Shown piece by piece: positions 22,095 through 37,469 of a stretch of DNA of 64,000 nt; the stretch's first letter is position 1; the number at the start of each line of letters is the position of its first letter. A program made the position numbers and the translations under genes. The notes below the pieces were generated by a model. It did no database searches. It saw nothing but the letters and a program-made list of their open reading frames with translations, and was not told the origin of the DNA. Origin of the DNA: Chryseobacterium geocarposphaerae. GTDB taxonomy: Bacteria > Bacteroidota > Bacteroidia > Flavobacteriales > Weeksellaceae. The stretch covers positions 434,001 through 498,000 of the forward strand of contig NZ_PGFD01000001.1 in the NCBI RefSeq assembly GCF_002797535.1, read 5' to 3'.

Positions 22095-23015
22095 CTAATT
22101 GAACGAATTTCTGAACTCTACAGGAGAAAGACCTGTCTGAGCCCTGAACATTTTACTGAATGACTGCGGATGTTCAAAGCCCAATTCATAGGCTATTTCA
22201 GCTACTGTCAATTCGGTGGAGATCAACCTTTCTTTTGCTTTTTCGGCAACCTTTTCGCGAATATACTGCTGAGTATTTTTACCAATTACCGAGCGCAGTA
22301 CATCACTCAAATAACCGGGTGAGATATTAAGCTGATCTGACAGATACTGAACGGTTGGAAGTCCATAACGCAGCGCTTGTTGATCATTAAGGTAATGATC
22401 AAGGATCGTTTCTGTTTTTTGAAGAATATCATTATTGACTACTTTTCTGGTAATGAACTGTCGTTTGTAAAACCGGTTGACGTAGCTCAGCAGCAATTCG
22501 ATCTGTGCGATCACCACTTCCTGGCTGAATTCATCAATCCTGCTGTTGAGTTCCTGTTTCATAATTTCAAAAACGGAAAGGATAATTTCCTTCTCCGGAT
22601 CAGATACATGAAGGGCCTCATTGGAAGAGTAGGAAAAATAGCTGTATTGCTTTATTTTACGTGCTATGGGGTGCCCCAAAAGAAAGTCAGGATGAATCAA
22701 TAGTAGGTAACAGTAGGTTTCACTGTTATAATCTGTGCTTCCCACCAGCTGATTGGGTGCCAGAAACAGCATGCTGCCTTCATTATAATCGTAAAAATTC
22801 CTGCCATATTTAAGCCTTCCTTTGTTTCTGGTGATGAAAGTAATCTTGTAGAAGCTCAGGAGATTATAAACGGGTGCCATCTCAGGATTGAAAGGATTAT
22901 CCTTATTGAAATGGATGAGGCTGATCAGCGGATGCTGTGGAGCGGGAAGTCCGAAAGCCTTATGGCTTTCCGATATTGATATAAACCGGATCAATTTATC
23001 CTCTTTACTTTTCAT
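22095..23015 (-). CDS. AraC-family transcriptional regulator
   Basis: 306 residues. N-terminal cupin-like sensor (~30-150) with YNEGSMLFLAPNQL, a helical linker, and the C-terminal AraC domain (~205-305) with YLSDQLNISPGYLSDVLRS and VAEIAYELGFEHPQSFSKMFR. It is clearly related along its length to the regulator at 49587 (shared APQHPLI/PPKHPLI, HPDFLLGHPIARKI-like and QFITRK segments). It follows the SDR at 23071 on the same strand, but a terminator lies between, so it is expected to have its own promoter. Regulation of the SDR is a reasonable inference since the homologue at 49587 also sits beside an SDR. Confidence 0.91.
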   Translation of the reverse strand: MKSKEDKLIRFISISESHKAFGLPAPQHPLISLIHFNKDNPFNPEMAPVYNLLSFYKITFITRNKGRLKYGRNFYDYNEGSMLFLAPNQLVGSTDYNSETYCYLLLIHPDFLLGHPIARKIKQYSYFSYSSNEALHVSDPEKEIILSVFEIMKQELNSRIDEFSQEVVIAQIELLLSYVNRFYKRQFITRKVVNNDILQKTETILDHYLNDQQALRYGLPTVQYLSDQLNISPGYLSDVLRSVIGKNTQQYIREKVAEKAKERLISTELTVAEIAYELGFEHPQSFSKMFRAQTGLSPVEFRNSFN

Positions 23016-23030
23016 ACTATAAATGTATAA

Positions 23031-23059
23031 AAAACCTATGACCCAGGATCATAGGTTTT
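23031..23059 (-). terminator. Terminator of the SDR at 23071
   Basis: An 11-bp perfect stem (23031-23041 with 23049-23059) and 7-nt loop between the SDR stop and the AraC start; read on the minus strand it ends in T-rich sequence. Confidence 0.7.
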
Positions 23060-23070
23060 GAAATTAAATA

Positions 23071-23853
23071 TTACCAGGGAAGAAGGCTGCCCTGTCTGCT
23101 GAAATTGACAGGACCTGTAAAACTACCTGTCGGAAGGTCTTCCGCCAGTGCTACTCTGATAGGCTCTTTAGACCCCTCTTCGACAGAATCAGTTCCCTCA
23201 AAATTATTGAGTGCTGTAGCTGTAAATCCAGGACTCACTAAATGAACCTTGATATTGGTTTTCTCCAGTTCTATCGCCAGAGACAGGAAAATTCCATTAA
23301 GTGCAGTTTTAGAAGCTCCATATACCGCGTCAAAATGTACACGGTACGGGTTTTCGGGATTGGCATTAATGGTAAGGGAACCCAATGCGCTGGAAACTGT
23401 CACAATACGTGCAGCTGGTGCTTTATGTAATAGTGGCAGAGAAGCCTGCGTGAGGGCCAGGGTTCCAAATACATTCGTGTCCCACACAGTTTTCAGTTCA
23501 TCTATAGGCACAATACTTGCGCGTTGTGAATTCAGGATTTCTTTCATGGTGCGTCCGGATTTTCCGGCATGAGAGATTGCTGCATTGTTCACAAGCAGTG
23601 TAAGATATCCATGTTCAGTTTCTATAGTCTCTACAGCAGTTCTTATCGACTCATTATCTGTAATATCCAGTTGAATCGCTTTTACGCTCGTGCCCATTTC
23701 AGCTACAGCTGCCCGGCCTTTTTGTAAATCTCTTGAACCCACATAGACAATATACCCATTTTCCGCAAGAGCTTTAGCAATCTGAAATCCTACACCGGTA
23801 TTAGCACCAGATACCAGGGCTACCTTATTTTCGTTATTTGTTATCATATTCAT
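23071..23853 (-). CDS. SDR family oxidoreductase
   Basis: 260 residues from the ATG at 23853. An upstream in-frame ATG at 23901 would add 16 Cys/Ile-rich residues that match no SDR start, and the A-rich leader before 23853 fits better. VSGANTGVG cofactor loop, NNAA after strand four, active-site Ser (VTVSSALG), Tyr and Lys in YGASK. Arg in VGSRDLQKG suggests NADPH. Cytoplasmic carbonyl reductase or alcohol dehydrogenase of unknown substrate. Paired with the AraC gene at 22095. A weak dyad (tatcc/ggata near 23904-23920) lies upstream. Confidence 0.9.
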   Translation of the reverse strand: MNMITNNENKVALVSGANTGVGFQIAKALAENGYIVYVGSRDLQKGRAAVAEMGTSVKAIQLDITDNESIRTAVETIETEHGYLTLLVNNAAISHAGKSGRTMKEILNSQRASIVPIDELKTVWDTNVFGTLALTQASLPLLHKAPAARIVTVSSALGSLTINANPENPYRVHFDAVYGASKTALNGIFLSLAIELEKTNIKVHLVSPGFTATALNNFEGTDSVEEGSKEPIRVALAEDLPTGSFTGPVNFSRQGSLLPW

Positions 23854-24129
23854 TAATTTGATTTTAATACAGCAAATTTCCCCAATATATATGGCACACA
23901 AGTATCCAAATCGAGGATATCTGAAGCCGTATTGAGGTTAGCGTATCATATGAAGGATATTCACAACTTGATTTAATCAAATACAAGGTTCTCTGCTTTT
24001 TATAAATTAGATGTTCAGTAGTAAAATTTACTCTTTGCCGTTTAGGGATAGAGTTCGCTAAGGGCGATCTGTAATCTTTGTTTTAAAAGTTTTTACTATC
24101 TTACTGTTATATTCAATTTTGAAAATTCA

Positions 24130-24638: not shown

Positions 24639-25394
24639 ATGTCAACACATGATTTAAAAGGAAAAGTTGTTTTAATCGCTGGTGGCGGTAAAAACCTTGG
24701 TGGCTTATTAAGCAGAGATTTTGCTTCAAAAGGAGCAAAGCTTGCTATACATTACAATAGTGAAAGCTCAAAAACGAAAAGCGAAAAAACATTGGCGGAA
24801 GTTCAAGGCTTAGGAGCAGAAGCATTTTTGTTTCAGGGCGATTTAACAAAAGTTGAAAATGTAAGCCGTTTTTTCGACGAGGCAATAACTAAATTCGGAG
24901 GAATTGATATTGCCATCAATACAGTTGGAATGGTATTAAAAAAGCCGTTTACTGAAACTACTGAGGAAGAATATGATAAAATGTTTGGAATCAATTCAAA
25001 ATCAGCTTATTTCTTCCTTCAGGAAGCCGGTAAAAAATTGAATGATAACGGGAAGATCTGTACAATAGTAACTTCTTTATTGGCTGCATACACAGGGCTG
25101 TATTCTACTTATGCAGGTGCTAAAGCTCCTGTGGAGCATTTTACAAGGGCTGCTTCTAAAGAGTTCGGATCAAGAGGGATTTCTGTAACCGCTGTTGCAC
25201 CTGGTCCTATGGATACACCATTCTTTTATGGTCAGGAAACTGATGACGCTGTAGCATATCACAAATCAGCATCTGCACTCGGTGGATTAACAAAAATTGA
25301 AGATATTGCCCCTCTGGTTGAATTTTTGGTAACGGATGGATGGTGGATCACGGGGCAGACTATTTTTGCCAACGGCGGCTATACTACCAGATAA
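24639..25394 (+). CDS. SDR family oxidoreductase
   Basis: 251 residues. The cofactor loop is IAGGGKNLGG (variant of TGxxxGxG), typical of the group annotated as 3-ketoacyl-ACP reductase-like SDR. Ser around VTSLLAA, Tyr and Lys in YAGAK, and a C-terminal GQTIFANGGYTTR. The loop after strand two (HYNSESSKTKSEK) indicates phosphate contacts and NADPH use. It stands alone between the AraC pseudogene and a membrane protein, so its former regulator may be the broken AraC gene upstream (inference). A hairpin terminator follows at 25399. Confidence 0.9.
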   Translation: MSTHDLKGKVVLIAGGGKNLGGLLSRDFASKGAKLAIHYNSESSKTKSEKTLAEVQGLGAEAFLFQGDLTKVENVSRFFDEAITKFGGIDIAINTVGMVLKKPFTETTEEEYDKMFGINSKSAYFFLQEAGKKLNDNGKICTIVTSLLAAYTGLYSTYAGAKAPVEHFTRAASKEFGSRGISVTAVAPGPMDTPFFYGQETDDAVAYHKSASALGGLTKIEDIAPLVEFLVTDGWWITGQTIFANGGYTTR

Positions 25395-25705: not shown

Positions 25706-26272
25706 ATGGATTCATTTTCTCATATAAGAGTTATCATAAGCATGATTTTGGGCTTCGGAGTAGCTCAATTACTGAAGAATTTAGTAAAATTGATAGATCA
25801 TCCCAAGAAAAGCAAGTCTGTTTACTGGCTACATTTAGGCTGGGTATTCTATATTTTTATTCTGATTGTTCTTTTCTGGTGGTGGGAATACCGGCTTGAA
25901 GCTATTCAACATTGGAATTTTTTGAGCTATCTGTTTCTAATTATCTATACCACATTGTATTATGTGTTATGTGTTCTGATTTTTCCGGATAATGTAAATG
26001 AATACAAGAACTATAAGGATTATTTTTTTTCCAGGAAAAATTGGTTTTTTTTATTTCAGATATTTCTGTTTGTAATTGATTTTGGAGATTCTCTTTTAAA
26101 AGGGAAGGCTTATTTTCAATCACTGCACTGGACATATCCGGTAAGAAATATACTGCATATTGCTCTTTGTTTTCTCGGAATCAAATCATCAAATGAAAAA
26201 ATTCAGGCCGGTCTTTTTTTTATTTTGCTTGTCTTTGATGTTTTATTCATTGCGCAAAATTATTTGTATTGA
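25706..26272 (+). CDS. Integral membrane protein of unknown function
   Basis: 188 residues with about six hydrophobic segments: ~8-25, 40-62 (with WWW in FWWWEYR), 73-92, 108-125, 142-157 and 165-185. Aromatic residues are abundant. The N-terminus (MDSFSHIRVIISMILGFGVA) resembles a family of small bacterial membrane proteins annotated only as hypothetical. No catalytic motif is visible. It lies 178 bp before the aldehyde dehydrogenase and is probably transcribed separately. Confidence 0.7.
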   Translation: MDSFSHIRVIISMILGFGVAQLLKNLVKLIDHPKKSKSVYWLHLGWVFYIFILIVLFWWWEYRLEAIQHWNFLSYLFLIIYTTLYYVLCVLIFPDNVNEYKNYKDYFFSRKNWFFLFQIFLFVIDFGDSLLKGKAYFQSLHWTYPVRNILHIALCFLGIKSSNEKIQAGLFFILLVFDVLFIAQNYLY

Positions 26273-26449
26273 ATGATTTCTATAAAAGAAGCTTAATTAG
26301 TAATTCATACGTACAATAAATACGTTCTTCAGAAAAATATTACTGCCTAAGTATTTTCTGATTTAGTCTAAATTTTGACAATAAGAATAACGTGGCAAAG
26401 CTTCATTCAGTCATTCAATTACTTATTTAGAAATATAAAACACACAATT

Positions 26450-27823
26450 ATGAACAAATACCAATCACTTTTTGATGCACAAAGAGAATTCTTCTACACC
26501 GATGTTTCCAAAACGTACGAATGGCGAATGGAGCAGCTCAACAGGTTAGAGAAAATGCTTACCGAAAACCAGGAAATATTTTGCCAGGCATTAAAGACCG
26601 ATTTCAATAAACCGCCTTTCGAGCAGTTATTTGAAATTACAGTACCATTGGGGAATATCAAATATTATAAAGAAAATCTTAAACAATTGATGGCTCCCGA
26701 GCATGTTGCTATACCAAAAGGGTTGGAGGCAACCGGAAACAAAGGGGTCATTTACAAAGAACCTTTTGGAGTTACCTTGGTTATAGGACCGTTCAATGCG
26801 CCTATTTTATTACTGCTCGATCCTGCAATTGCAGCTTTGGCGGCCGGAAATCCGGTGATCCTTAAACCAGCTAATACAACTCCAACGGTTGCTGCACTTT
26901 TTCAGGAACTTATCCCTAAATATTTTGAACCTGAAGCAGTAAATATTGTGACAGGAGGAAGAGAAGAAATCTCTGCATTATTGGGACTGCCTTTCGATTT
27001 TATTTTTTTTACGGGAAGCTCTGCGGTAGGGAAGGTCGTAATGCGTGCTGCGGCTGAAAATCTAACACCCGTCATTTTGGAATTAGGAGGTCAAAACCCG
27101 ACTGTGGTTGATGAGACGGCAAATCTTGACATTGCAGTTGATCGTATTGTTTGGGGGCATATGGCAATTTCCGGACAATGGTGTATTGCCCCGGGTTATG
27201 TATATGTTCATGAAAATATTGCTGAGGAATTTCTGGACAAGCTGAAAGCATCTGTTGTAAAAATGTATGGTGAAGACCCAAGTCAAAGCCCTGATTTTGC
27301 AAGAATGATCAGTGAGCATGATACCGAAAGGGTGGCCTCTTATATCATTCCCGAAAAAGTAATTTTAGGCGGAAGATTTGACGTTAATTCAAGATATGTA
27401 GAGCCGACAATTTTATACCCGAGTACTTGGGATGACCCTGCAATGCAGCAGGAGATTTTCGGACCTGTATTCCCGATTCTTGTATATAATGACTTAAAAG
27501 AAATTGTAGAAATCATCAAACGCAAACCCAAGTCTCTGGCAGCTTATTTCTTTAGTAAAAATCAACAGAACATAGACTATTTCATACATTCAATTTCTTT
27601 CGGCGGTGGATGTATTAACCAGACCAACCTGCATTGCTGGATAGACAGCCTGCCTTTTGGAGGTGTTGGATATGCCGGAATGGGCAAATATTATGGTAAG
27701 GCAGGTTTCGATGCATTGAGTAATACAAAAGCCATGCTGATTGGAAATCCGGATTTGGAACTGGATGTTTTTCCGCCTTACGAAGGAAAAGATATTGCTA
27801 AAAACCTAAGCATTTTCGGATAA
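26450..27823 (+). CDS. Aldehyde dehydrogenase (class 3-like)
   Basis: 457 residues from the ATG at 26450. A longer frame from 26375 would add 25 residues unlike the family, and the A-rich leader directly before 26450 favours the shorter form. Catalytic residues are in place: Asn116 (GPFNAP), Glu211 (ELGGQNP) and the nucleophile Cys245 (GQWCIAP). The length below 480 and the C-terminal SLPFGGVGYAGMGKYYGKAG place it with the ALDH3/coniferyl-aldehyde group, which oxidises medium and long or aromatic aldehydes with NAD(P)+. First gene of a seven-gene operon (2 bp to the next gene) that ends with the bestrophin and carbonic anhydrase. Confidence 0.93.
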   Translation: MNKYQSLFDAQREFFYTDVSKTYEWRMEQLNRLEKMLTENQEIFCQALKTDFNKPPFEQLFEITVPLGNIKYYKENLKQLMAPEHVAIPKGLEATGNKGVIYKEPFGVTLVIGPFNAPILLLLDPAIAALAAGNPVILKPANTTPTVAALFQELIPKYFEPEAVNIVTGGREEISALLGLPFDFIFFTGSSAVGKVVMRAAAENLTPVILELGGQNPTVVDETANLDIAVDRIVWGHMAISGQWCIAPGYVYVHENIAEEFLDKLKASVVKMYGEDPSQSPDFARMISEHDTERVASYIIPEKVILGGRFDVNSRYVEPTILYPSTWDDPAMQQEIFGPVFPILVYNDLKEIVEIIKRKPKSLAAYFFSKNQQNIDYFIHSISFGGGCINQTNLHCWIDSLPFGGVGYAGMGKYYGKAGFDALSNTKAMLIGNPDLELDVFPPYEGKDIAKNLSIFG

Positions 27824-27825
27824 AT

Positions 27826-28353
27826 ATGAAGTTACAAGAAGCCATCAATTTGATTGAGAAAGCATTTCCGCATTCCAATATGCCTCAGGTTTGGGCAGAT
27901 TTAGGTTGTGGAGGAGGTACTTTCACTAATGCTTTAGCTCACTTATTACCTGATGGGAGCCATATTTATGCCATAGATAACCGGTTACAAAGCTTCCCCA
28001 AATTATTGGGAAACAATGTCTCTATTGATTTTATAAAAAATGATTTTGCAACGTCTGATTTGAATTTTTCAAATATCAATGGGATTTTGATGACAAACTC
28101 GCTGCATTATATAAAAGATAAAGCCACACTGATCAATATGCTGGAGAAATATATGTCGGAAGATAAAAAATTTGTGATTGTGGAGTATGATACTATTATT
28201 GCCAATCACTGGGTCCCTTATCCAATTAATTTTTTGGGGCTTAAAGAACTATTTATTGAGCTGGGTTATTCAAAAATTATTAAATTAGATGAACAGAATT
28301 CAATATATGGACAAGGCAATTTGTATTCTGTAGCCATAGGTAAAACCTTTTAA
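27826..28353 (+). CDS. Class I SAM-dependent methyltransferase
   Basis: 175 residues. SAM-binding motif I is ADLGCGGGTFT near residues 24-34, the acidic end of strand two is AIDNR, and strand four contains GILMTNSLHYIKD. The compact length and lack of further domains leave the substrate open. It begins 2 bp after the aldehyde dehydrogenase stop, so the two are translationally coupled. Confidence 0.85.
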   Translation: MKLQEAINLIEKAFPHSNMPQVWADLGCGGGTFTNALAHLLPDGSHIYAIDNRLQSFPKLLGNNVSIDFIKNDFATSDLNFSNINGILMTNSLHYIKDKATLINMLEKYMSEDKKFVIVEYDTIIANHWVPYPINFLGLKELFIELGYSKIIKLDEQNSIYGQGNLYSVAIGKTF

Positions 28354-28362
28354 AAACACAAT

Positions 28363-28719
28363 ATGATACTAAAAATTATTAATTCTGCATTAATACTTGT
28401 TGCCATATTTATGGGGCTTAAACAAGGATGGGCGATGCTTTCGGGCAAACCAGAGATGATAGCAATGTTTAGCAAATGGAACATCAGTAAAACAGGCTTG
28501 ATGGTTATCGGAGCTACAACGATGCTAAGTGCACTACTCATTATTTTCCCGAAAACCTTTGTTTGGGGAAATTTCTTAATGGCCGCCGGTATTTTATTGA
28601 TCATCAGTTTTCACTTGCTGGATAGAGATTTGAAAGGCATGGCAATAGAATTACCATTTCTATTGCTGAATCTGATTATTATCTATTTACAGCACCCATT
28701 AAAAGATGGGGCATTATAA
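28363..28719 (+). CDS. DoxX-like small membrane protein
   Basis: 118 residues with four hydrophobic helices (about 4-20, 43-60, 66-82, 90-110). The GLKQGWAMLSGKPEM loop after the first helix and overall layout match DoxX-like membrane proteins. Their biochemical role is poorly defined; some act with thiosulfate oxidation or in redox stress. It sits 9 bp after the methyltransferase and overlaps or abuts the next gene. Confidence 0.7.
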   Translation: MILKIINSALILVAIFMGLKQGWAMLSGKPEMIAMFSKWNISKTGLMVIGATTMLSALLIIFPKTFVWGNFLMAAGILLIISFHLLDRDLKGMAIELPFLLLNLIIIYLQHPLKDGAL

Positions 28720-28732
28720 ACATCAAATTTCA

Positions 28733-29200
28733 ATGATTAAGGTATTATTCATTACAGCCTTTGCGGTTTGTTGTTCGCTCACAGCGTGTGGACAATCAAA
28801 AACTCAGAAAACGGAAACAACAACAATTAAAAAAACACAAAAAATGAACACGAACAAACTTACAAATGAAACCGTGAAGGCCGCTTTCGATGCCTGGCAA
28901 AATGGTGACAGCAAAACTTTTCTGTCTTACTTTACCGCAGATGCTAGGCTTTATGATGACGGCAGTCCCCGAAATTTTCAAAGCTTTGTCAAAGAAGCCT
29001 GCGGACACGAAAGATTCACGAGCATAGAAAAGGTGGAAAATGAAGGAAAAGATATTACGGGAAATTTCCATACAGAAAGCTGGGACGATTTTAAAACCTA
29101 TTTTAAGTTTAGCATTGATGCCGGTGGTAAGTTTACAGGCTCGATATTGGACAGGCTAAATAGCTTGTTGTTCATTCATTATGTATTGAAACAATTCTGA
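28733..29200 (+). CDS. SnoaL/NTF2-like lipoprotein with a frameshifted C-terminus
   Basis: The ATG at 28733 gives a lipoprotein signal ending in LTAC (Cys19), which an upstream ATG at 28706 would spoil. The mature part has the NTF2-like pattern VKAAFDAWQNGDSKTFLSYF, then TADARLYDDGSP. At the end the frame passes into SILDRLNSLLF. One base shift away, at 29140-29163, the sequence reads LDIGQAK and stop, the kind of ending expected for this family. A single-base change near 29135-29140 has therefore probably replaced the last residues and added 12 codons. Function unknown; small-ligand binding is typical. Confidence 0.7.
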   Translation: MIKVLFITAFAVCCSLTACGQSKTQKTETTTIKKTQKMNTNKLTNETVKAAFDAWQNGDSKTFLSYFTADARLYDDGSPRNFQSFVKEACGHERFTSIEKVENEGKDITGNFHTESWDDFKTYFKFSIDAGGKFTGSILDRLNSLLFIHYVLKQF

Positions 29201-29214
29201 CATTTTCTGCTCCG

Positions 29215-29880
29215 GTGAATAAAATAATAGCATTTCTTCAAAATAAAAAATACGAATTATTACTTTTCGCATTGCTTCAGCATTTATTTGTTGGCATAAT
29301 CCTTACTGATCTTGAGTTCTATACGAGGGTCATTTGGCCTGCCAATATGCTTATATTAGGATTGGGAAGCATCTTCATGTTTACGGGAAAACATACCTGG
29401 AGACATTGGTTTAGGAATTTTCAGTTTATTCTTGTGTTACTTCTACCTATTGGTATTCCTTTTTTTAAAGATATACCATGGTATTTTACTTTCCTTAATA
29501 TCAATTATGTCGTTTTTTTTGGATTCCTGTTTGTAGAACTGCTTCGGTTTCTACTAAAACCGGGATATATTAATAGCGATATTATTTCAGCATCAGCATG
29601 CGGTTATTTTTTATTAATAGAGATTTCGGTATTCTTATTACAAACATTTGAATATTATAATCCGTTGTCTTTTAAAGGAATAGATGTCTCTTCACCAGCA
29701 AGCATATATATTGACCTGGTATATTTTTGCTCTATAACCTTTACCAGTATTGGTTTTGGCGATATCACACCAGGTACACATACTACCAAATTAATTACAG
29801 CATTTATAGGTGTTGCAGGACAGTTTTATACGGTAGTTTTGGTTGGTATCCTTATCAGTAAATTTTCCTCAAAAAATTAA
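29215..29880 (+). CDS. Potassium-channel-like protein
   Basis: 221 residues from a GTG start. Five hydrophobic segments (about 10-30, 35-57, 65-83, 88-113, 120-142) are followed by a pore helix and selectivity filter (FCSITFTSIGFGDITPG, ~163-180) and a last helix (~188-215). TxxGFGD is a variant of the K+ channel filter TVGYGD. No cytoplasmic RCK or nucleotide-binding domain is attached. It is 6 bp from the bestrophin gene, which suggests paired cation and anion conductances. Confidence 0.85.
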   Translation: MNKIIAFLQNKKYELLLFALLQHLFVGIILTDLEFYTRVIWPANMLILGLGSIFMFTGKHTWRHWFRNFQFILVLLLPIGIPFFKDIPWYFTFLNINYVVFFGFLFVELLRFLLKPGYINSDIISASACGYFLLIEISVFLLQTFEYYNPLSFKGIDVSSPASIYIDLVYFCSITFTSIGFGDITPGTHTTKLITAFIGVAGQFYTVVLVGILISKFSSKN

Positions 29881-29886
29881 ATCAAT

Positions 29887-30903
29887 ATGAATATAAGCTC
29901 TCATTACAAGCTTAAGCATTTTATTCCCTGGACAAGATCTAAAATATATAAAATGCTTTTATTAAGTATAATTCCGACGCTGCTGTTTTATTTTCTGGAC
30001 TGGAAGTGGCTGGCAATTCCCTGGGTTCCGGTGGCTTTGCTGGGAACAGCCACGGCATTCATTTCGGGGTTCAAAAATACTCAGACCTATAACCGAACCT
30101 GGGAAGCGCGACAGGTGTATGGTGCTATCATTAACAGTAGCCGGGCTTTTGGAATTATGGTAAAAGATTTTATCCGTTCAGAGGACAAAATTCTTGAAAA
30201 ACAACTGCATCAGGAAGTTATTTATCGACATTTTGCGTGGCTCACAGCATTACGCTTTCAGCTTAGAGAAATTAAAAGTTGGGAGAACGTGAAAACCAAA
30301 AGTTACAATCGGGAATATCTTCAATATTACAACGTTCCGGAGTGGGAAAGTAGTTTGAATGAAGAACTGGCGGAATTTCTTAGTGAAGAAGAACTTCAAT
30401 ACATTTTATCAACAAAAAACCGCGCAACGCAAATCATAAGTTCCCAATCTTCTCAACTAAAAAAACTGAATGAGGAAAACAAAATATCAGATTACAATTA
30501 TGTTGCCCTCGAGAATCAGCTCAAAGAATTGTACGACCAGCAGGGGAAATGCGAACGTCTTAAAAACTTTCCTTACCCGAGACAGTTTTCGAGCATCAAT
30601 TTATATTTTACCAATGCCCTGTGTCTTCTAATGCCATTGGGCTTCATAGGCGAATTTTCTAAGATGACGGAGAAATTCGGGGATAATATAATTTGGCTTG
30701 CTATTCCCTTCAGTGTATTGCTGGGATGGGTATTTTTAGTTTTGGAACAGATTGGCGAAAGTACGGAAAACCCATTTGAGGGGAATGCCAACGATATTCC
30801 TATTACCCAGATAAGCAGAAATATAGAGATTGATCTTCGTGAAATGTTGGGTGAAAAAGATCTGCCACCAGCAATTGTGGCACAGAATAATATTTTAATG
30901 TAA
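29887..30903 (+). CDS. Bestrophin-family anion channel
   Basis: 338 residues. The N-terminal region (WTRSKIYKMLLLSIIPTLLF, then WLAIPWVPVALLGTATAFISGF) and NTQTYNRTWEARQVYGAIINSSR are typical of bacterial bestrophins. The long soluble helical middle (~95-225) and late transmembrane pair (~240-285) also fit, and NPFEGNANDIPITQISRNIE near the C-terminus is the conserved post-TM4 block. Bestrophins form pentameric channels for chloride or bicarbonate. The next gene, 19 bp downstream, encodes an LCIB-type carbonic anhydrase, which makes bicarbonate a plausible ion here (inference). Confidence 0.92.
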   Translation: MNISSHYKLKHFIPWTRSKIYKMLLLSIIPTLLFYFLDWKWLAIPWVPVALLGTATAFISGFKNTQTYNRTWEARQVYGAIINSSRAFGIMVKDFIRSEDKILEKQLHQEVIYRHFAWLTALRFQLREIKSWENVKTKSYNREYLQYYNVPEWESSLNEELAEFLSEEELQYILSTKNRATQIISSQSSQLKKLNEENKISDYNYVALENQLKELYDQQGKCERLKNFPYPRQFSSINLYFTNALCLLMPLGFIGEFSKMTEKFGDNIIWLAIPFSVLLGWVFLVLEQIGESTENPFEGNANDIPITQISRNIEIDLREMLGEKDLPPAIVAQNNILM

Positions 30904-30922
30904 ATATAAATACGAGTAAATT

Positions 30923-31660
30923 ATGGAACATTTAGAATCTGTCAGAAAGTGGTATCCTAAAGCCTTAACTTCTATTGATACCGTTAACCGGCTATTAGAC
31001 ACTATTGAAAAGTATATAGGTTTAAAACCTAATCAATTGATGCACGCAGACAGCATGTGCTGCGATGATGTCAATGCCATACAATATCCGCCAAGAGCTT
31101 ATGAAATGTTGGGTCCGTTTCATTTAGGGGGATTGGACGGTTTTCCTTTCGCTGGGATTACAGGGATGAATGCTTTTGCACATCATGTTCCGGAAGACGG
31201 TGCTGTTATCATATTTTATGCGCCACATATTGGCATTACAAAGGATGGTACTATCGGAGAAATAAGCAGAATTGGGCAGAGTGGTAATTCGGCATGCTGT
31301 GGTGCTGCGAAAGGAGCATTGGGAAAGCTTTCGGCAGGACAAATTATTGAGGGGAACATCACTTCACTGGACTTCCAGATGAATACCATTGAACAGATCT
31401 TTCTTCATCAGAAAGGCAGAATCCTTACTGCGGAAAATCAAATATTTGAGGCAACGGAAGTCATGTATGAAGCCATTGATGAAAGAATAGAAGTGTTGGT
31501 AAAAGAAGCCAATTATCCCTGTAAATATGTAATTTTGGTAGGTGCTATTTTTATCAACGGAGATAAAGACATGGGATCTTTCTGTCAATACAAGAAATTC
31601 GATTATATTAATTTGGAAACGCAACAGCGAAAAAGTTTAATGACAGAATATTATTCTTAA
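30923..31660 (+). CDS. LCIB/LCIC-like carbonic anhydrase (theta type)
   Basis: 245 residues. Conserved blocks match the limiting-CO2-inducible B/C family: HADSMCCDDVNAIQYPPRAY (41-60), GPFHLGGLDGFPFAGITG (64-81), AFAHHVPEDG, PHIGI (101-105) and SACCGAA (123-129). Probable zinc ligands are one of Cys46/47, His102 and one of Cys125/126, with Asp48/49 nearby, like the Cys-His-Cys site of beta-type enzymes. The family interconverts CO2 and bicarbonate; algal LCIB belongs to the CO2-concentrating mechanism. No signal peptide, so cytoplasmic. It ends the operon with the K+-channel-like and bestrophin genes. Confidence 0.82.
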   Translation: MEHLESVRKWYPKALTSIDTVNRLLDTIEKYIGLKPNQLMHADSMCCDDVNAIQYPPRAYEMLGPFHLGGLDGFPFAGITGMNAFAHHVPEDGAVIIFYAPHIGITKDGTIGEISRIGQSGNSACCGAAKGALGKLSAGQIIEGNITSLDFQMNTIEQIFLHQKGRILTAENQIFEATEVMYEAIDERIEVLVKEANYPCKYVILVGAIFINGDKDMGSFCQYKKFDYINLETQQRKSLMTEYYS

Positions 31661-32792: not shown

Positions 32793-33644
32793 ATGGTTAC
32801 AGACTATAAAAAATTTGATCTATTCGGAAAAACACTGATTCAGAAAGTGGATTTTAAACCACCTTTTCAATTTGCTTTTCCGGTTGCAGAACAGGCTTGC
32901 TTCCTTTATATGTTGCGGGGTGAAATAGAATATCGGTCAGAAGATGATCAACTGAAAATAGAAGATAAACGCTCATTATTACTTAACTGTATGGCTTCCG
33001 GCCAGCAGATACAAAATAACAATTCGGAAAGCAATGGTGAAATCATCATTGTTACCTTTCATCCGGACATTCTTAAAAAAGTATATGATAAGGAGATCCC
33101 CACGATCTTTATGCCCAATAATCAGGTCACCAACCAAAATAAAAAGAGAATCAATAATGATTTTCTTATTCAAAAATACATAGAAGGTCTGCTTTTTTAT
33201 TTTGAAAATCCTTCTTTGGTAAACGATGAAATTCTGATTTTGAAGCTTAAGGAAATAATCCTCTTACTGTCTCAAACCCAAGACGCTGAAAATATTCAGG
33301 TCATACTTTCACAGCTTTTCTCATCAACGACTTATTCCTTCAAACAGATTATTGAAGCCAATCTGTTTCTGCAGTTAGGAATCGAAGAACTGGCACAGAA
33401 AACAAATCTGAGCATTTCGTCTTTTAAAAGGGAATTTAAAAAGTTATATGATGATTCGCCTGCCAATTATATTAAATCCAAAAGACTTGAAAGGGCTGCA
33501 GAACTCCTCATAGCTACCAGTGAAAGGATTACGGATATTGCATTTGACTGTGGATTTAACGATCTTGCAAATTTTACTAAAAGTTTTCACGAAAGATATC
33601 AGCAATCTCCTACAAATTACCGGTTGAAGTTAAAAGGAGAATAA
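32793..33644 (+). CDS. AraC-family transcriptional regulator (repeat copy 2)
   Basis: 283 residues, same as the regulator at 5702 except Gly instead of Glu at the penultimate position. Cupin-like N-terminal domain and C-terminal two-HTH domain are intact, so both copies should be functional and bind the same operators. It is followed after 39 bp by the convergent HxlR gene. Confidence 0.92.
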   Translation: MVTDYKKFDLFGKTLIQKVDFKPPFQFAFPVAEQACFLYMLRGEIEYRSEDDQLKIEDKRSLLLNCMASGQQIQNNNSESNGEIIIVTFHPDILKKVYDKEIPTIFMPNNQVTNQNKKRINNDFLIQKYIEGLLFYFENPSLVNDEILILKLKEIILLLSQTQDAENIQVILSQLFSSTTYSFKQIIEANLFLQLGIEELAQKTNLSISSFKREFKKLYDDSPANYIKSKRLERAAELLIATSERITDIAFDCGFNDLANFTKSFHERYQQSPTNYRLKLKGE

Positions 33645-33683
33645 CAGTATTCCTTATATAAAAAATCTGTATCAGAAATTAAA

Positions 33684-34010
33684 CTAATTCACAAACTCTT
33701 CTCCCCACTTAAGCAGCTCTGCAAGACTGGGTTCCAACTTTCTTCCTTTTTCTGTGAGAGTATACTCCACGGTAGGAGGAACTGTGGCAAAGACTTGTCG
33801 TATAACTATTCCGTTTTCTTCCATATTCTTTAATTCTTTTACCAGCATACGCGTATTAATGTTGGTTACTAATTTTTGAAGCTCATTAAATCTTTTGGTA
33901 CCATGTAGAAGAGCAAAAATGATTGACATTGACCATTTTCCACCAATAATATCTAAAATTTCCTGTATCACACATTTCCCTGGAATTTTTTCAGAATTTT
34001 TTTTGTTCAT
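33684..34010 (-). CDS. HxlR-family transcriptional regulator
   Basis: 108 residues, a standard MarR-like winged helix of the HxlR family: CVIQEILDIIGGKWSMSIIF, FNELQKLVTNINTRMLVKEL and the wing with VEYTLTEKGRKLEP. The N-terminal Cys13 sits where family members such as HypR carry their redox or electrophile-sensing cysteine. It is divergent from the SDR at 34128, with a perfect 13-bp dyad between them, so autoregulation and control of the SDR are likely. An electrophile or aldehyde signal is plausible but inferred. Confidence 0.93.
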   Translation of the reverse strand: MNKKNSEKIPGKCVIQEILDIIGGKWSMSIIFALLHGTKRFNELQKLVTNINTRMLVKELKNMEENGIVIRQVFATVPPTVEYTLTEKGRKLEPSLAELLKWGEEFVN

Positions 34011-34048
34011 AACGTTTTGATTTTCTGTATGGCTTTACTTTTTGGTAT

Positions 34049-34086
34049 TACTTTACATTTGTGTAACTACTTTCAAATGTAAAGTA
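34049..34086. promoter_or_regulatory. HxlR-type operator between divergent genes
   Basis: Perfect 13-bp inverted arms (tactttacatttg at 34049-34061, caaatgtaaagta at 34074-34086) with a 12-bp spacer. The right arm lies just upstream of the SDR -7 box at 34094, where a bound repressor would block RNA polymerase. Confidence 0.75.
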
Positions 34087-34093
34087 TTGGGTT

Positions 34094-34101
34094 TAGATTT
34101 G
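34094..34101 (+). promoter_or_regulatory. Probable -7 box of the SDR at 34128
   Basis: TAGATTTG fits TAnnTTTG, 26 bp before the ATG and adjacent to the operator dyad. Confidence 0.45.
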
Positions 34102-34127
34102 CAACATAATATTTCAATTTTAACATT

Positions 34128-34901
34128 ATGGAAAATTTATTAAAAGGAAAAATTGCGCTTGTTACAGGTGGAACAAAAGGTATCGGAAAAGCAATTGCTG
34201 ATAAGCTTGCACGTGATGGTGCACAGGTTGTCGTAACAGCCCGCACCAAGCCGGATGAAGAAATAGCACATTATTTTATAGCTGGTGATCTGACTAAGCC
34301 GCAAACTGCCCAGTTTATTGCTGAAGAAATCTTGGAAAAGTTTGGAAAGGTTGATATTGTGATAAATAATGCTGGTGCCAATACAAGTCCTGGAGGTGGA
34401 TACAGTACTCTTAGTGACGAAGATTGGAGCAACGAAATTGAGTTGAACCTTATGTCCGCTGTGAGAGTGAATAAGGCGCTTATACCAAGTCTGATATCAC
34501 AGAATGAAGGTGTGATTATTAATATATCCACTGGGGCAGCAGTGCAGCCGCTTTGGAAAATGACTATGTCGTATTCAGCCTCAAAGGCAGCTTTAAATGC
34601 CTATACAAAAGCTTTGGCAAGCGAATTGGGATCGCAGGGTGTACGTGTTAATGCGGTATCTCCAGGTATGGTCAAAACACCTCTGATGGAAAGTTTTATT
34701 GCTGACATTGCAGAAAAAGGAGGTATCTCTTTTGATGCAGCTTTCAAATCTATAAAAAATGAAATAGGAGACCTTCCATTGAGCAGAATGGGCGAGCCGG
34801 AAGAGGTGGCATCACTTGTGAGTTTTTTGGTTTCCCCGGAAGCAAAATACATCACCGGAGCAAACTATAGGATTGATGGAGGAGCAATGGCAATTTTATA
34901 G
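34128..34901 (+). CDS. SDR family oxidoreductase
   Basis: 257 residues, classical SDR. VTGGTKGIG at 12-20, Arg in VTARTKPDE after strand two (NADPH-type), NNAGA, active-site Ser in NISTGAA, YSASK with catalytic Tyr and Lys, and the C-terminal YRIDGGAMAIL. Divergent from and probably controlled by the HxlR regulator at 33684, an arrangement common for SDRs that remove reactive carbonyls. Substrate not predictable. Confidence 0.93.
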   Translation: MENLLKGKIALVTGGTKGIGKAIADKLARDGAQVVVTARTKPDEEIAHYFIAGDLTKPQTAQFIAEEILEKFGKVDIVINNAGANTSPGGGYSTLSDEDWSNEIELNLMSAVRVNKALIPSLISQNEGVIINISTGAAVQPLWKMTMSYSASKAALNAYTKALASELGSQGVRVNAVSPGMVKTPLMESFIADIAEKGGISFDAAFKSIKNEIGDLPLSRMGEPEEVASLVSFLVSPEAKYITGANYRIDGGAMAIL

Positions 34902-34988
34902 TAATTCCTAGTAATAATATTTTTTAAATTGTATCTACTTTAGTAACAGTACTTTGGATTCTCATTAGGGTATTATAATAGTTTTACT

Positions 34989-35042
34989 CATTTGCATTTT
35001 TTACTATGTTGCTACTTTTTTATGTAAAATTAAATGCAAATG
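34989..35042. repeat. Long-spaced inverted repeat
   Basis: Arms catttgcattt (34989-34999) and aaatgcaaatg (35032-35042) are perfectly complementary over 11 bp and extend with one wobble, with a 32-nt spacer containing a second short ttac/gtaa pair. Could be an RNA stem or a pair of operator half-sites. Confidence 0.5.
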
Positions 35043-35295
35043 GGTTGCTATATCTAGAGTTTTTTGCTCCTTCATAGGAAAAGAATCCGTTCCCATTCTT
35101 TCCACAGTAACCAATTCAATTTTCCATTGTCTACTTTTTTAATAATGGATCGCCACTAACTTACTTCTCCACAAAGACTTTTATCAGATATATTTCCACA
35201 AATTAATCTTTAGTATATCAGGTTAATCTCCAGAATTATTCACAAGCAAGCGTTTACAATATTTATGTAGCTCAAATTATTTAGCCTATAACTAT

Positions 35296-35324
35296 TTTGA
35301 GAACAAAGAAAATTCATATATTTG
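35296..35324 (+). promoter_or_regulatory. Probable promoter of the MarR operon
   Basis: TTTG (35296-35299) and TATATTTG (35317-35324) match the Bacteroidota -33/-7 elements with a 17-bp spacer, slightly shorter than usual. Confidence 0.45.
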
Positions 35325-35328
35325 CAAA

Positions 35329-35348
35329 ATACTTGACTAATCAAATAT
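35329..35348. promoter_or_regulatory. MarR-type dyad in the leader of the MarR gene
   Basis: The near-palindrome atacTTGActaaTCAAatat is centred at 35338/35339, between the -7 box and the start codon at 35363; probably an autoregulatory operator. Confidence 0.4.
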
Positions 35349-35362
35349 ATTACAAATATAAA

Positions 35363-35779
35363 ATGAAAGAAATAAGTACAATTCTGAATATTTTAAAGGT
35401 TCAATCTGTCATTACAAAAAAGTTTGACGGTTTAAGTCTGCATGGTATTAGCCTTACTGACTATATGATCCTGTATATTTTAAGTAATGCACCTGGTAAC
35501 CGTTTAAAAAGAATTGATCTTGCTGAGAATACAGGTTTAACCGCTTCTGGCATTACGCGGATTATTTTACCAATGGAAAAAATGGGACTTGTAGAAAAAG
35601 AAAATAGTGATAGGGATGCGAGGGTGAGTTATGTAAAACTCACTTCTGCCGGAGAAAGAATTTTTACAGAAGCTACAAGTACAGCGGGGTACATATCCAA
35701 AAAGCTATTAGAAGGAATTGTAACGGAAGATCTAAGTGTTTTCGCCGGGCAATTGAAAATCTTAGGGGGTGATATTTAA
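35363..35779 (+). CDS. MarR-family transcriptional regulator
   Basis: 138 residues from the ATG at 35363. The frame extends back to 35297, but those residues lie inside the promoter and resemble no MarR start. A winged-helix core is clear: RIDLAENTGLTASGITRIIL for the recognition region and KENSDRDARVSYVKLTSAG for the wing. MarR proteins usually repress until a phenolic or oxidant ligand binds. It leads a short operon: GIY-YIG-like gene (5 bp), DUF1330-like gene (1 bp) and alpha/beta hydrolase (10 bp). Confidence 0.92.
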   Translation: MKEISTILNILKVQSVITKKFDGLSLHGISLTDYMILYILSNAPGNRLKRIDLAENTGLTASGITRIILPMEKMGLVEKENSDRDARVSYVKLTSAGERIFTEATSTAGYISKKLLEGIVTEDLSVFAGQLKILGGDI

Positions 35780-35784
35780 ATTTA

Positions 35785-36138
35785 ATGAATAGTATGGACA
35801 AAAAGTACAGAAAGAAATTAAACGCTGAGTTTTTAGAGATGAAACCGTTAATGGGTGTATTGACTATTCTGAATAATTCGGAAAATAAAATATTTATTAA
35901 AGAGAGTACTAATTTAAAAGCACTTTCTAATAGAATCCGGTTTGAGCTGAACAACGGACAATTTGATAACAGGAGTTTACAGGACGATTGGATCCGGCTG
36001 GGAGAGAAGAGTTTCGTTTTTGAAAATATGATCATTGTTCCATGGGAAGAGAACAAAATCATAGGCTATAAAAAGAAGTTGCAGAAAGCTAAAAACGATC
36101 TGAAAGAAGAGCAAAGTAAAACCAAAAATATATACTGA
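35785..36138 (+). CDS. GIY-YIG-fold protein with degenerate active site
   Basis: 117 residues. The middle follows the GIY-YIG domain seen in many Bacteroidota proteins: MGVLTILNNSENKIFIKEST, then LKALSNRIRFELNNGQF and LQDDWIRLGEKSFVFE. The signature tyrosines are not where expected: GIY reads GVL and YIG reads FIK. The Arg of the helix (NRIRFEL) and a Glu after SFVF may remain. The C-terminus is a Lys/Glu-rich helix. Nuclease activity is doubtful; a nucleic-acid-binding or vestigial role is possible. Second gene of the MarR-led operon. Confidence 0.65.
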   Translation: MNSMDKKYRKKLNAEFLEMKPLMGVLTILNNSENKIFIKESTNLKALSNRIRFELNNGQFDNRSLQDDWIRLGEKSFVFENMIIVPWEENKIIGYKKKLQKAKNDLKEEQSKTKNIY

Positions 36139-36139
36139 T

Positions 36140-36562
36140 ATGGAAAGCAAAACCTATTTATATCCAACCTACGAAGCCGGCCGGGATCTTATGTTAAAAA
36201 ATATTCAAGGGTCAATCGTAAATTTAAATCTGATACATTTAAAGGAAATTGCTGATTATTCCGGGTTTCCTGAAATTGCACCTGCCAGCGAAATTTCGGG
36301 TTACGAAGCTTTTATGCTCTATATAGACCTTGCCAAACCTTTTCTAGAGCAGGGTGGTGGAGAGATTCTTTTTGTTGGAAAAGGAGACCGCTTTTTGATA
36401 GGTCCTCAGGACGAACAGTGGGATATCTGTATGTTGATTAGACAAAGAAGTGTATCGGATTTTTTTGCTTTCGAGCAGAATCCGGATTATATGAAGATTA
36501 CGGGGCATCGTGTCGCTGCGATATTGGATTCAAGACTTTTACCCTTAGAGATCACATTGTAG
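36140..36562 (+). CDS. DUF1330-like dimeric alpha/beta-barrel protein
   Basis: 140 residues. The second half carries the pattern RSVSDFFAFEQNPDYMKITG, then HRVAAILDSRLLPLE, typical of DUF1330 and related ferredoxin-like small proteins. No signal peptide or membrane segment. Such proteins are often encoded beside oxidoreductases or hydrolases and may bind small aromatic compounds; the function is not established. It starts 1 bp after the GIY-YIG-like gene and ends 10 bp before the hydrolase. Confidence 0.6.
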   Translation: MESKTYLYPTYEAGRDLMLKNIQGSIVNLNLIHLKEIADYSGFPEIAPASEISGYEAFMLYIDLAKPFLEQGGGEILFVGKGDRFLIGPQDEQWDICMLIRQRSVSDFFAFEQNPDYMKITGHRVAAILDSRLLPLEITL

Positions 36563-36572
36563 TAAATTATTT

Positions 36573-37469
36573 ATGGGATATATCGAGCTAAAAAATGCTA
36601 CCATCTATTATGAAGTATTTGGAGCTGAAAACAACGAAACTATCATACTCATCAGTGGGTTAAACACACAAATGACCCGTTGGGAACTTCCATTTCGTAA
36701 TAAGGTTGTAGAAGAAGGATTTCGCGTAATCTGCTTTGACAACAGAGACTGTGGAAAAAGTACTTTTACTACCTATAATAGCAACGACAGCTATAGCTTT
36801 TCTTTGAATGATTTTCTACAGCATCCAGAAAAATATCCTGCCCCTTATTCTTTATTGGATATGGCAGATGATATAAAAGATTTGCTGCATTCACTTGGCA
36901 TCAGGAGCGCAAATATTGTAGGGCGTTCAATGGGTGGCATCATAGCACAGCTATTTGCATCACGATATCCGGAAATGACTCAGACACTGACTTTATTGAT
37001 GTCTTCAAGCTTTAATCCTGCTCTTCCGAAGGCAGATGATGCATTGATAGGCAAAATGACAAACAGCACTACAAATTTTCACGATAATAAGCAAGCTTAT
37101 ATACATGAAAAAGTTGATTTTATGAAAGCTATTTATGGAAATAAATATAGTTTTAATGAAGAAAAAGAACGTTGGTTAATTATCGAAGACGAAAGCCGAA
37201 AGTCTCCATTCGTTAGGCCATTTCGTCAGATCATTGCCCTGCTGAGTTATCAATATGATTCAAATGTTCTTACTAGTCTCCATGTACCCACATTGACGAT
37301 ACATGGAGATGAAGATCCGTTATTTAATATTGAACATGCAGTTGATTTAAAAAATACTATTCCTTACTGTGAGCTGATCATAAAAAGAGGAATGGGACAC
37401 GCTATCCCGGATTCACTATTTCCGTCACTGGTGAAAGACATTTCAAATTTTATTGCTAAAACTGAATGA
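36573..37469 (+). CDS. Alpha/beta hydrolase
   Basis: 298 residues, no signal peptide, so cytoplasmic. Ser119 in GRSMGG is the nucleophile, the acid lies in IHGDEDPLF, and His276 lies in GMGHAIP. The NRDCGKS loop after strand four is typical of the subfamily often annotated with aclacinomycin methylesterase or related esterases. The oxyanion segment reads ISGLN instead of HG. Last gene of the MarR-led operon; its stop lies only 10 bp from the stop of the convergent gene at 37480. Confidence 0.87.
   Translation: MGYIELKNATIYYEVFGAENNETIILISGLNTQMTRWELPFRNKVVEEGFRVICFDNRDCGKSTFTTYNSNDSYSFSLNDFLQHPEKYPAPYSLLDMADDIKDLLHSLGIRSANIVGRSMGGIIAQLFASRYPEMTQTLTLLMSSSFNPALPKADDALIGKMTNSTTNFHDNKQAYIHEKVDFMKAIYGNKYSFNEEKERWLIIEDESRKSPFVRPFRQIIALLSYQYDSNVLTSLHVPTLTIHGDEDPLFNIEHAVDLKNTIPYCELIIKRGMGHAIPDSLFPSLVKDISNFIAKTE

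Follow-up and report, generated by a model that had tools for sequence, protein, structure and literature searches.

In Chlamydomonas, LCIB and the bestrophin-like channels BST1-3 are thought to act in series, with LCIB converting CO2 to HCO3-, which then passes through BST1-3 (PMC9614477; this and the other papers are cited here from excerpts). DAB2, composed of DabA and DabB, is a membrane-potential-driven carbonic anhydrase that combines a beta-carbonic-anhydrase-like zinc site with an antiporter-like membrane protein (PMC13144422). The KefC/KefF and KefB/KefG systems link K+ efflux to proton influx, which acidifies the cytosol and protects from electrophiles, and their ancillary subunit is an oxidoreductase (PMC10224563). 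Here, we analyzed a 64,000-nucleotide stretch of the Chryseobacterium geocarposphaerae genome (family Weeksellaceae; contig NZ_PGFD01000001.1, positions 434,001 to 498,000), referred to as the window, which carries an operon for a K+-channel-like protein, a bestrophin and an LCIB-type carbonic anhydrase (LCIB). The operon is real, conserved and mobile; its parts are known, and their combination represents a variant. In the open-licence literature, judged from titles and the beginnings of abstracts among the matches listed, no bacterial operon of LCIB, bestrophin and a cation transporter is described.

The three genes are consecutive plus-strand open reading frames at positions 29215-31660, separated by gaps of 6 and 19 bp. 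These positions and gaps agree exactly with an earlier reading made from the DNA alone (the sequence-only reading), which had also identified a channel with a TxxGFGD filter, a bestrophin and an LCIB-type anhydrase. The channel filter reads TSIGFGD in a protein matching PF07885, and the anhydrase matches PF18599. The bestrophin was recognized correctly as such, but its family is PF25539 instead of PF01062, as had been named.

Conserved gene order and an interchangeable cation transporter

Gene order was compared across 52 loci, comprising 48 from a one-genome-per-species LCIB scan (all Bacteroidota, going by their titles), the window and the loci L016, L026 and L028. Of a set of 14 fetched loci, 11 were kept out of the neighbourhood counts (10 duplicates, and L029 with a weak broken match alone). 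A locus was considered strict when its bestrophin gene precedes LCIB in the same orientation by at most 700 bp. Strict adjacency was found in 38 of the 52 loci, with a median bestrophin-LCIB gap of 17.5 bp, in a scan that seeks close relatives of the query and thus favours cassette-type LCIBs. The sequence-only reading had named a lack of conserved adjacency in related genomes beforehand as an outcome that would refute it; the adjacency is conserved.

A cation transporter gene precedes the bestrophin in 34 of the 38 strict loci. More specifically, this position is occupied by the channel in 26 loci (median channel-bestrophin gap 6 bp) and by a CPA1 Na+/H+ antiporter in eight, while neither was found in the remaining four. 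The antiporter was identified from one representative, L045 (TIGR00831 a_cpa1, 343.8 bits, cut-off 279.6; also PF00999). When wider protein families are counted, the channel is present in 27 loci and the antiporter in 11, and the two never occur together in any compared locus. The swap between them requires three changes on the bestrophin tree, all three forced by well-supported branches, and likewise three on the LCIB tree. Furthermore, a TMEM175 K+ channel (PF06736) was found in three cassettes, beside the channel in L035 and L059 and also in L138. With the antiporter in place of the channel in eight strict loci, K+ as a fixed ingredient, as in the sequence-only reading, is not supported. 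The presence of unrelated cation transporters in the same place fits a need for a counter-cation path rather than for K+ itself.

L138 (1-8126) is a decaying cassette with genes for a short-chain dehydrogenase/reductase (SDR), a methyltransferase, DoxX, SnoaL, TMEM175, a porin and a frame-broken bestrophin, and with an antiporter on the opposite strand; no LCIB was seen in it.

The trio as the whole unit, as had been proposed, is likewise not supported. Stress-type genes precede the core in 29 of the 38 strict loci, and none was detected in nine, one of which (L054) starts only 231 bp upstream of the channel. Upstream accessory genes in the strict loci encode DoxX (26), SnoaL-like proteins (19), SDR-family enzymes (18), aldehyde dehydrogenase (ALDH; 13), AraC-type helix-turn-helix proteins (11) and methyltransferases (6). 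Since the order is kept while this upstream block varies, the core consists of cation transporter, bestrophin and LCIB, usually with a stress-type block ahead. In L043 (4411-4965), a TetR-type regulator gene (PF00440) stands before the SDR gene where other cassettes have the AraC-type gene, and a 184-aa open reading frame occupies the matching position in L075 and L076. In Chitinophaga ginsengisegetis (L038, 4119-6182), the genes immediately ahead of the cassette are of the SBF type (PF01758) and the low-molecular-weight phosphatase type (PF01451), and together they suggest an arsenic-resistance block.

In the window, the trio forms the 3' end of a longer co-directional run, not noted in the sequence-only reading, of SDR, a 188-aa membrane protein, ALDH, methyltransferase, DoxX, SnoaL-like protein, channel, bestrophin and LCIB (Table 1). 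Open reading frames were called mechanically, so that some starts and gaps are uncertain. The SDR gene lies 311 bp before that of the 188-aa protein, and the gaps from ALDH to methyltransferase and from methyltransferase to DoxX measure 2 and 9 bp. If its first ATG is taken, the SnoaL-like gene overlaps DoxX by 14 bp; it ends 14 bp 5' of the channel, and a gap of 346 bp follows LCIB.

Table 1. Coordinates of the operon and its co-directional upstream genes in the window
Feature	Position	Strand	Details
KCH, K+-channel-like protein	29215..29880	+	GTG start, 221 aa; PF07885 Ion_trans_2 E 3.4e-11
Bestrophin, Bacterial/Fungal type	29887..30903	+	338 aa; PF25539 Bestrophin_2 E 6e-43
LCIB-type beta-carbonic anhydrase	30923..31660	+	245 aa; PF18599 LCIB_C_CA E 1.2e-66
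SnoaL/NTF2-like protein	28706..29200	+	SnoaL_2 E 0.0044, under curated cut-off; family recurs in cassettes
DoxX-like membrane protein	28363..28719	+	PF13564 E 8.7e-7
S-adenosylmethionine-dependent methyltransferase	27826..28353	+	PF13847 E 1.4e-6
Aldehyde dehydrogenase (ALDH)	26375..27823	+	PF00171 E 8.6e-87
188-aa predicted membrane protein	25706..26272	+	no Pfam family above cut-off
Short-chain dehydrogenase/reductase (SDR)	24639..25394	+	NF009385 442 bits (cut-off 296); PF13561 E 3e-45

The SnoaL-like protein has a lipoprotein-like N-terminus, with the signal judged by eye. Comparison with the L058 homologue places the likely true start of ALDH at the ATG at 26450; its best NCBIfam match is the benzaldehyde dehydrogenase MdlD (368 bits, below the cut-off of 550). 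Among the compared loci, the 188-aa membrane protein finds its sole match in a 90% identical copy in C. elymi (L030, from the same genome as L027). A promoter scan (Sigma-70-type) returned 33 matches versus 29.4 expected, a chance level, and terminators numbered seven versus 4.8; neither was used. The cassette is surrounded (22095-23901 and 32793-37466) by genes for AraC, HxlR and MarR regulators, more SDR genes and an alpha/beta hydrolase gene, and these surroundings look like a chemical-stress neighbourhood.

Distribution, transfer and other inorganic-carbon genes

Within the window's family, LCIB scored above the cut-off in 14 of 197 genomes; one more genome, G140, gave a weak, stop-containing fragment. 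Eleven of the 14 carry channel, bestrophin and LCIB together, G007 has the channel and a shorter LCIB with no bestrophin, and G028 and G030 hold LCIB alone. Channel relatives are present in 12 of the 14 LCIB-positive genomes versus 4 of the 183 others (Fisher p 3e-14), so that the co-occurrence of channel and LCIB exceeds chance. The four channel relatives from LCIB-negative genomes show 37-63% identity, and neither bestrophin nor LCIB was found within the stretches fetched around them (9.5-12 kb). In one related genus, six bestrophins of close similarity (70-72%) occur without LCIB.

Across the wider phylum, LCIB was detected in 35 of 395 sampled genomes, and its context was viewed in 22 of these (20 fetched loci together with G000, the host genome, and G082). 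One of the 20 fetched loci, L109, contains a divergent channel-bestrophin-LCIB trio (62, 51 and 61% identity, respectively). In four of the 20 (L115, L120, L121 and L126), an SbtA/SbtB-type gene pair lies near LCIB on the opposite strand, at a distance of two genes in L115, L120 and L126 and directly adjoining it in L121. Pfam identified the pairs of L115 and L121 as Sbt_1 (E 2e-110 and 4e-112) and P-II, and those of L120 and L126 fall in the same clusters. Sbt_1 is a family of Na+-dependent bicarbonate transporters. The presence of this pair near LCIB in a Bacteroidota lineage lacking the cassette gives bacterial LCIB a link to inorganic carbon that does not depend on bestrophin. The genes between LCIB and the pair in L115 encode a LysR-type regulator and isocitrate dehydrogenase, an enzyme that releases CO2. 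Product names among the 120 best LCIB matches listed read 'hypothetical protein' or 'Limiting CO2-inducible ...'.

Approximately unbiased (AU) tests were applied to the window's family, a group of 16 rows (Weeksellaceae together with L031) that was defined with the bestrophin tree already known. Holding this group as a single clade was rejected with p 1.7e-10 for the LCIB tree and p 9e-79 for the bestrophin tree, which indicates that the cassette has moved between families. Plasmid-borne spread was considered and rejected, as 72,556 plasmid records contained no LCIB match; due to this lack of a plasmid copy, mobility is read from the trees only. The window, part of a contig of 2.58 Mb in a genome of 4.1 Mb, contains no tRNA gene, and GC content over the cassette is not out of line.

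The host genome also encodes two beta-carbonic anhydrases flanking a 530-aa SulP-family transporter (L141, G000:C2:285500-293500; PF00484, PF00916, PF00484), a possible second inorganic-carbon cluster. The two enzymes rule out LCIB as the only anhydrase of the host; no alpha-carbonic anhydrase was matched, and gamma-carbonic anhydrases were not searched for. Because of this cluster, the LCIB cassette represents an addition rather than a housekeeping function. The genome, which is 99.96% complete, yielded no match to the large subunit of ribulose-1,5-bisphosphate carboxylase/oxygenase (RuBisCO), to SbtA or to DabA (PF10070).

Sequence features of the core proteins

LCIB matches PF18599 with 224.6 bits (cut-off 25). 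Alignment with structures of PtLCIB4, whose zinc ligands are C46, H102 and C126 (PMC6352938), located the zinc ligands of the window protein at C46, H102 and C126. Together with the catalytic residues D48, H88 and R116, they are invariant in 50 of 50 proteins and in 70 of 70 of a larger set. Twenty members of the larger set were selected by a motif of four residues, C46 and D48 among them, and the set contains two identical pairs (68 different proteins). The residue counts exclude the LCIB fragments of L028 and L072. The Cys-His-Cys site anticipated by the sequence-only reading is thus present in the alignment, and the zinc site is, as far as sequence can tell, intact. H88 corresponds to the residue mutated in 5b5z, as mapped by counting along the alignment, and R116 is the presumed counterpart of Chlamydomonas R194. 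The residue following the zinc ligand C46, at position 47 (window 31061-31063), varies: 42 of the 70 proteins have Cys and 28 have Ser, as does PtLCIB4. It may be a marker of cassette-type LCIB; 9vzj and 9w05, LCIB-type anhydrases according to their depositors, also have two consecutive cysteines at this site. The hydropathy maximum of 1.11 reveals no membrane segment, and LCIB is therefore probably cytosolic. PtLCIB3 and PtLCIB4 seem to be constitutively active (PMC9614477).

The channel scores 43.3 bits against PF07885 (cut-off 22.5) and shows six hydrophobic segments by hydropathy. Its selectivity filter is invariant in 27 of 27 channels, and Pfam detected no cytosolic regulatory domain.

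The bestrophin reaches 147.8 bits against PF25539 (cut-off 27) and matches Klebsiella bestrophin (KpBest) structures at E 2e-25. Its neck residues T54-F58-F62, invariant in 40 of 40 proteins, align with KpBest I62-I66-F70, the latter positions having been found by spacing. Compared with the I-F-F neck of animal bestrophins, the middle F is as in anion channels and the first residue is T, and the paralogues are alike. KpBest is a Na+ channel that the substitution I66F turns towards Cl- (PMC8496536), and the phenylalanine at this position in the window bestrophin may favour anions as the permeant species. BesA, a bestrophin of Methylobacterium, has been linked to chloride export (PMC4271186).

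Proposed role, rival explanations and known systems

As our preferred reading, with chances just short of even, we consider the cassette to be a module for pH and bicarbonate that is associated with stress and moves horizontally, and that probably adjusts cell pH and ion content under stress. By established electrochemistry, HCO3- flows outward through a passive channel when the membrane potential is inside-negative, and an anhydrase behind such a channel leaves one proton for every HCO3- exported, with a charge that needs to be balanced. Starting from the observed gene order, recurrence, transfer, interchange and conserved residues, we infer the substrate, direction, catalysis and inducing stress. 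Cytosolic LCIB, given its apparently intact active site, would hydrate metabolic CO2 to HCO3- and H+. HCO3-, perhaps with Cl-, would then exit through the bestrophin down its outward electrochemical gradient. The counter-flux would come from a cation transporter that can be of several unrelated types: the K+-type channel in the window, the CPA1 Na+/H+ antiporter elsewhere and sometimes the TMEM175 K+ channel. In the channel version, K+ and HCO3- would be lost overall while the proton stays inside; in the antiporter version, protons would enter directly. Both versions would acid-load or buffer the cytosol. Judging from gene order, expression would be tied to the upstream SDR, ALDH, DoxX and SnoaL-like genes, which in some relatives lie behind an AraC-type regulator. 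From the position of the module behind stress-type genes, its inducer is probably a chemical stress, or else alkaline conditions or CO2 stress.

The bicarbonate and cation theme of the sequence-only reading is supported, and pH or bicarbonate homeostasis continues to be the best reading. A bolder formulation, which we hold to be doubtful, is that of an undescribed transferable acid-loading system, in which the anhydrase makes H+ and HCO3-, the bestrophin discards the base and varied cation transporters close the circuit, so that the cytosol is acidified or held on demand, for example against electrophiles or alkaline shock, an outcome that Kef reaches through a different chemistry.

Several observations weigh against the preferred reading. 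Bestrophin relatives occur in 93 of the 197 family genomes and LCIB in only 14, so that a bestrophin alone is not diagnostic of the cassette. In the phylum sample, LCIB lacks an adjoining bestrophin in 19 of the 20 fetched loci and hence does not need one. Fourteen of the 52 compared loci fall outside the strict count; among these, the bestrophin lies about 1 kb upstream in L042 and L055, is broken in L063 and is a piece at the contig end in L069, while the sequence of L072 begins inside LCIB. The T-F-F neck also occurs in two bestrophin paralogues encoded by the host genome and in one bestrophin without LCIB. Due to these paralogues, the neck was rejected as cassette-specific proof of anion selectivity. 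Such residues are described as gates rather than selectivity filters (PMC7176437), and KpBest, the solved bacterial relative, conducts Na+ (PMC8496536). Some LCIB homologues with intact fold and zinc motif are inactive (PMC5876011), and the enzymes encoded upstream may have an unrelated role. Two distance correlations (Mantel) run counter to bestrophin and LCIB as the closest pair: 0.91 for antiporter and bestrophin over 10 loci and, with far rows omitted, 0.74 for ALDH and bestrophin (12 loci), above the 0.65 for bestrophin and LCIB (35 loci).

The last comparison also speaks for a mobile stress cassette of independently useful genes, in which channel, bestrophin and LCIB are co-transcribed and functionally uncoupled, an explanation that we regard as rather unlikely. 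It is consistent with the variable make-up of the cassette, whose upstream genes come and go, with the many stress-type enzymes among them and with moderate Mantel values (channel-LCIB 0.40, DoxX-LCIB 0.32, SnoaL-bestrophin 0.14). However, the order of transporter, bestrophin and LCIB stays constant despite these varying genes, and nine of the 38 strict loci have no detected accessory gene at all. Moreover, one cation transporter takes the place of another at the same spot, and over all rows the bestrophin-LCIB correlation (0.81, 40 loci) is the highest among pairs compared over more than 11 loci, with channel-bestrophin at 0.53.

Improbable in our view is a supply of bicarbonate or CO2, in which the bestrophin would import HCO3- for carboxylases, LCIB would interconvert it with CO2 and the channel would hold the potential. 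Algal LCIB and bestrophins are indeed part of a CO2-concentrating mechanism (PMC9614477), and LCIB lies near SbtA/SbtB uptake-system genes in a related lineage. Against this stands the established principle that no channel can accumulate an anion inside a cell whose membrane potential is inside-negative, along with the lack of a RuBisCO match and the presence of two beta-carbonic anhydrases with a SulP-family transporter in the host genome. The presence of LCIB in only 14 of the 197 family genomes further indicates that it is dispensable for ordinary anaplerosis. The anaplerotic CO2 supply put forward by the sequence-only reading has thus become less likely, as the membrane potential opposes passive anion entry, letting bicarbonate out and not in, and the two beta-carbonic anhydrases already exist. 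More improbable still is a different substrate, with the LCIB-fold enzyme acting on another small molecule and the bestrophin moving chloride or organic anions from the upstream detoxification enzymes. Enzymes of the beta-carbonic anhydrase fold exist for carbonyl sulfide (COS) or carbon disulfide (CS2), and the ALDH and SDR families yield acids or alcohols; the benzaldehyde dehydrogenase-like upstream ALDH and the Cys/Ser variation at residue 47 beside the zinc ligand point the same way. Nevertheless, the full canonical LCIB site is present, the labelled anhydrases 9vzj and 9w05 share the cysteine pair, and the SbtA/SbtB neighbourhood speaks for inorganic carbon.

If the pH and bicarbonate module is real, it would represent a RuBisCO-free bacterial counterpart of the algal LCIB-bestrophin pairing, with the partnership fixed in gene order, and would supply a physiological role for some bacterial bestrophins as well as for the LCIB-type anhydrases of bacteria without RuBisCO. 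Since the proteins are small and encoded in one operon, the action of LCIB and bestrophin in series on bicarbonate, and its direction, can be tested. The repeated exchange of channel for antiporter constitutes a natural experiment on the ionic circuit that the module needs.

Among known systems, the beta-carbonic anhydrase/SulP clusters, one of which is the host's own L141, likewise place an anhydrase gene beside an anion transporter gene, but anhydrase subfamily and transporter are unrelated to those of the cassette, and the SulP clusters come without a cation transporter. The Kef systems resemble the cassette in a cation flux that acidifies the cytosol, as proposed here, and in their genetic link to oxidoreductases; however, Kef has a KTN/RCK domain, which Pfam did not find in the three window proteins, and no anhydrase or bestrophin. 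DAB2 also joins a carbonic anhydrase with an antiporter-like protein in one system. In contrast to the cassette, in which the anion channel is separate and the cation transporters are interchangeable, DAB2 forms one complex and occurs in autotrophs, and DabA (PF10070) and DabB (PF00361) belong to other families. The Chlamydomonas CO2-concentrating mechanism (LCIB/LCIC, BST1-3) differs in its RuBisCO and pyrenoid, whereas here a single bacterial operon includes a cation transporter in a genome with no RuBisCO match, and the membrane involved would be the cytoplasmic membrane. As a whole, its pairing of an LCIB-family enzyme with a bestrophin makes the algal mechanism the nearest known logic.

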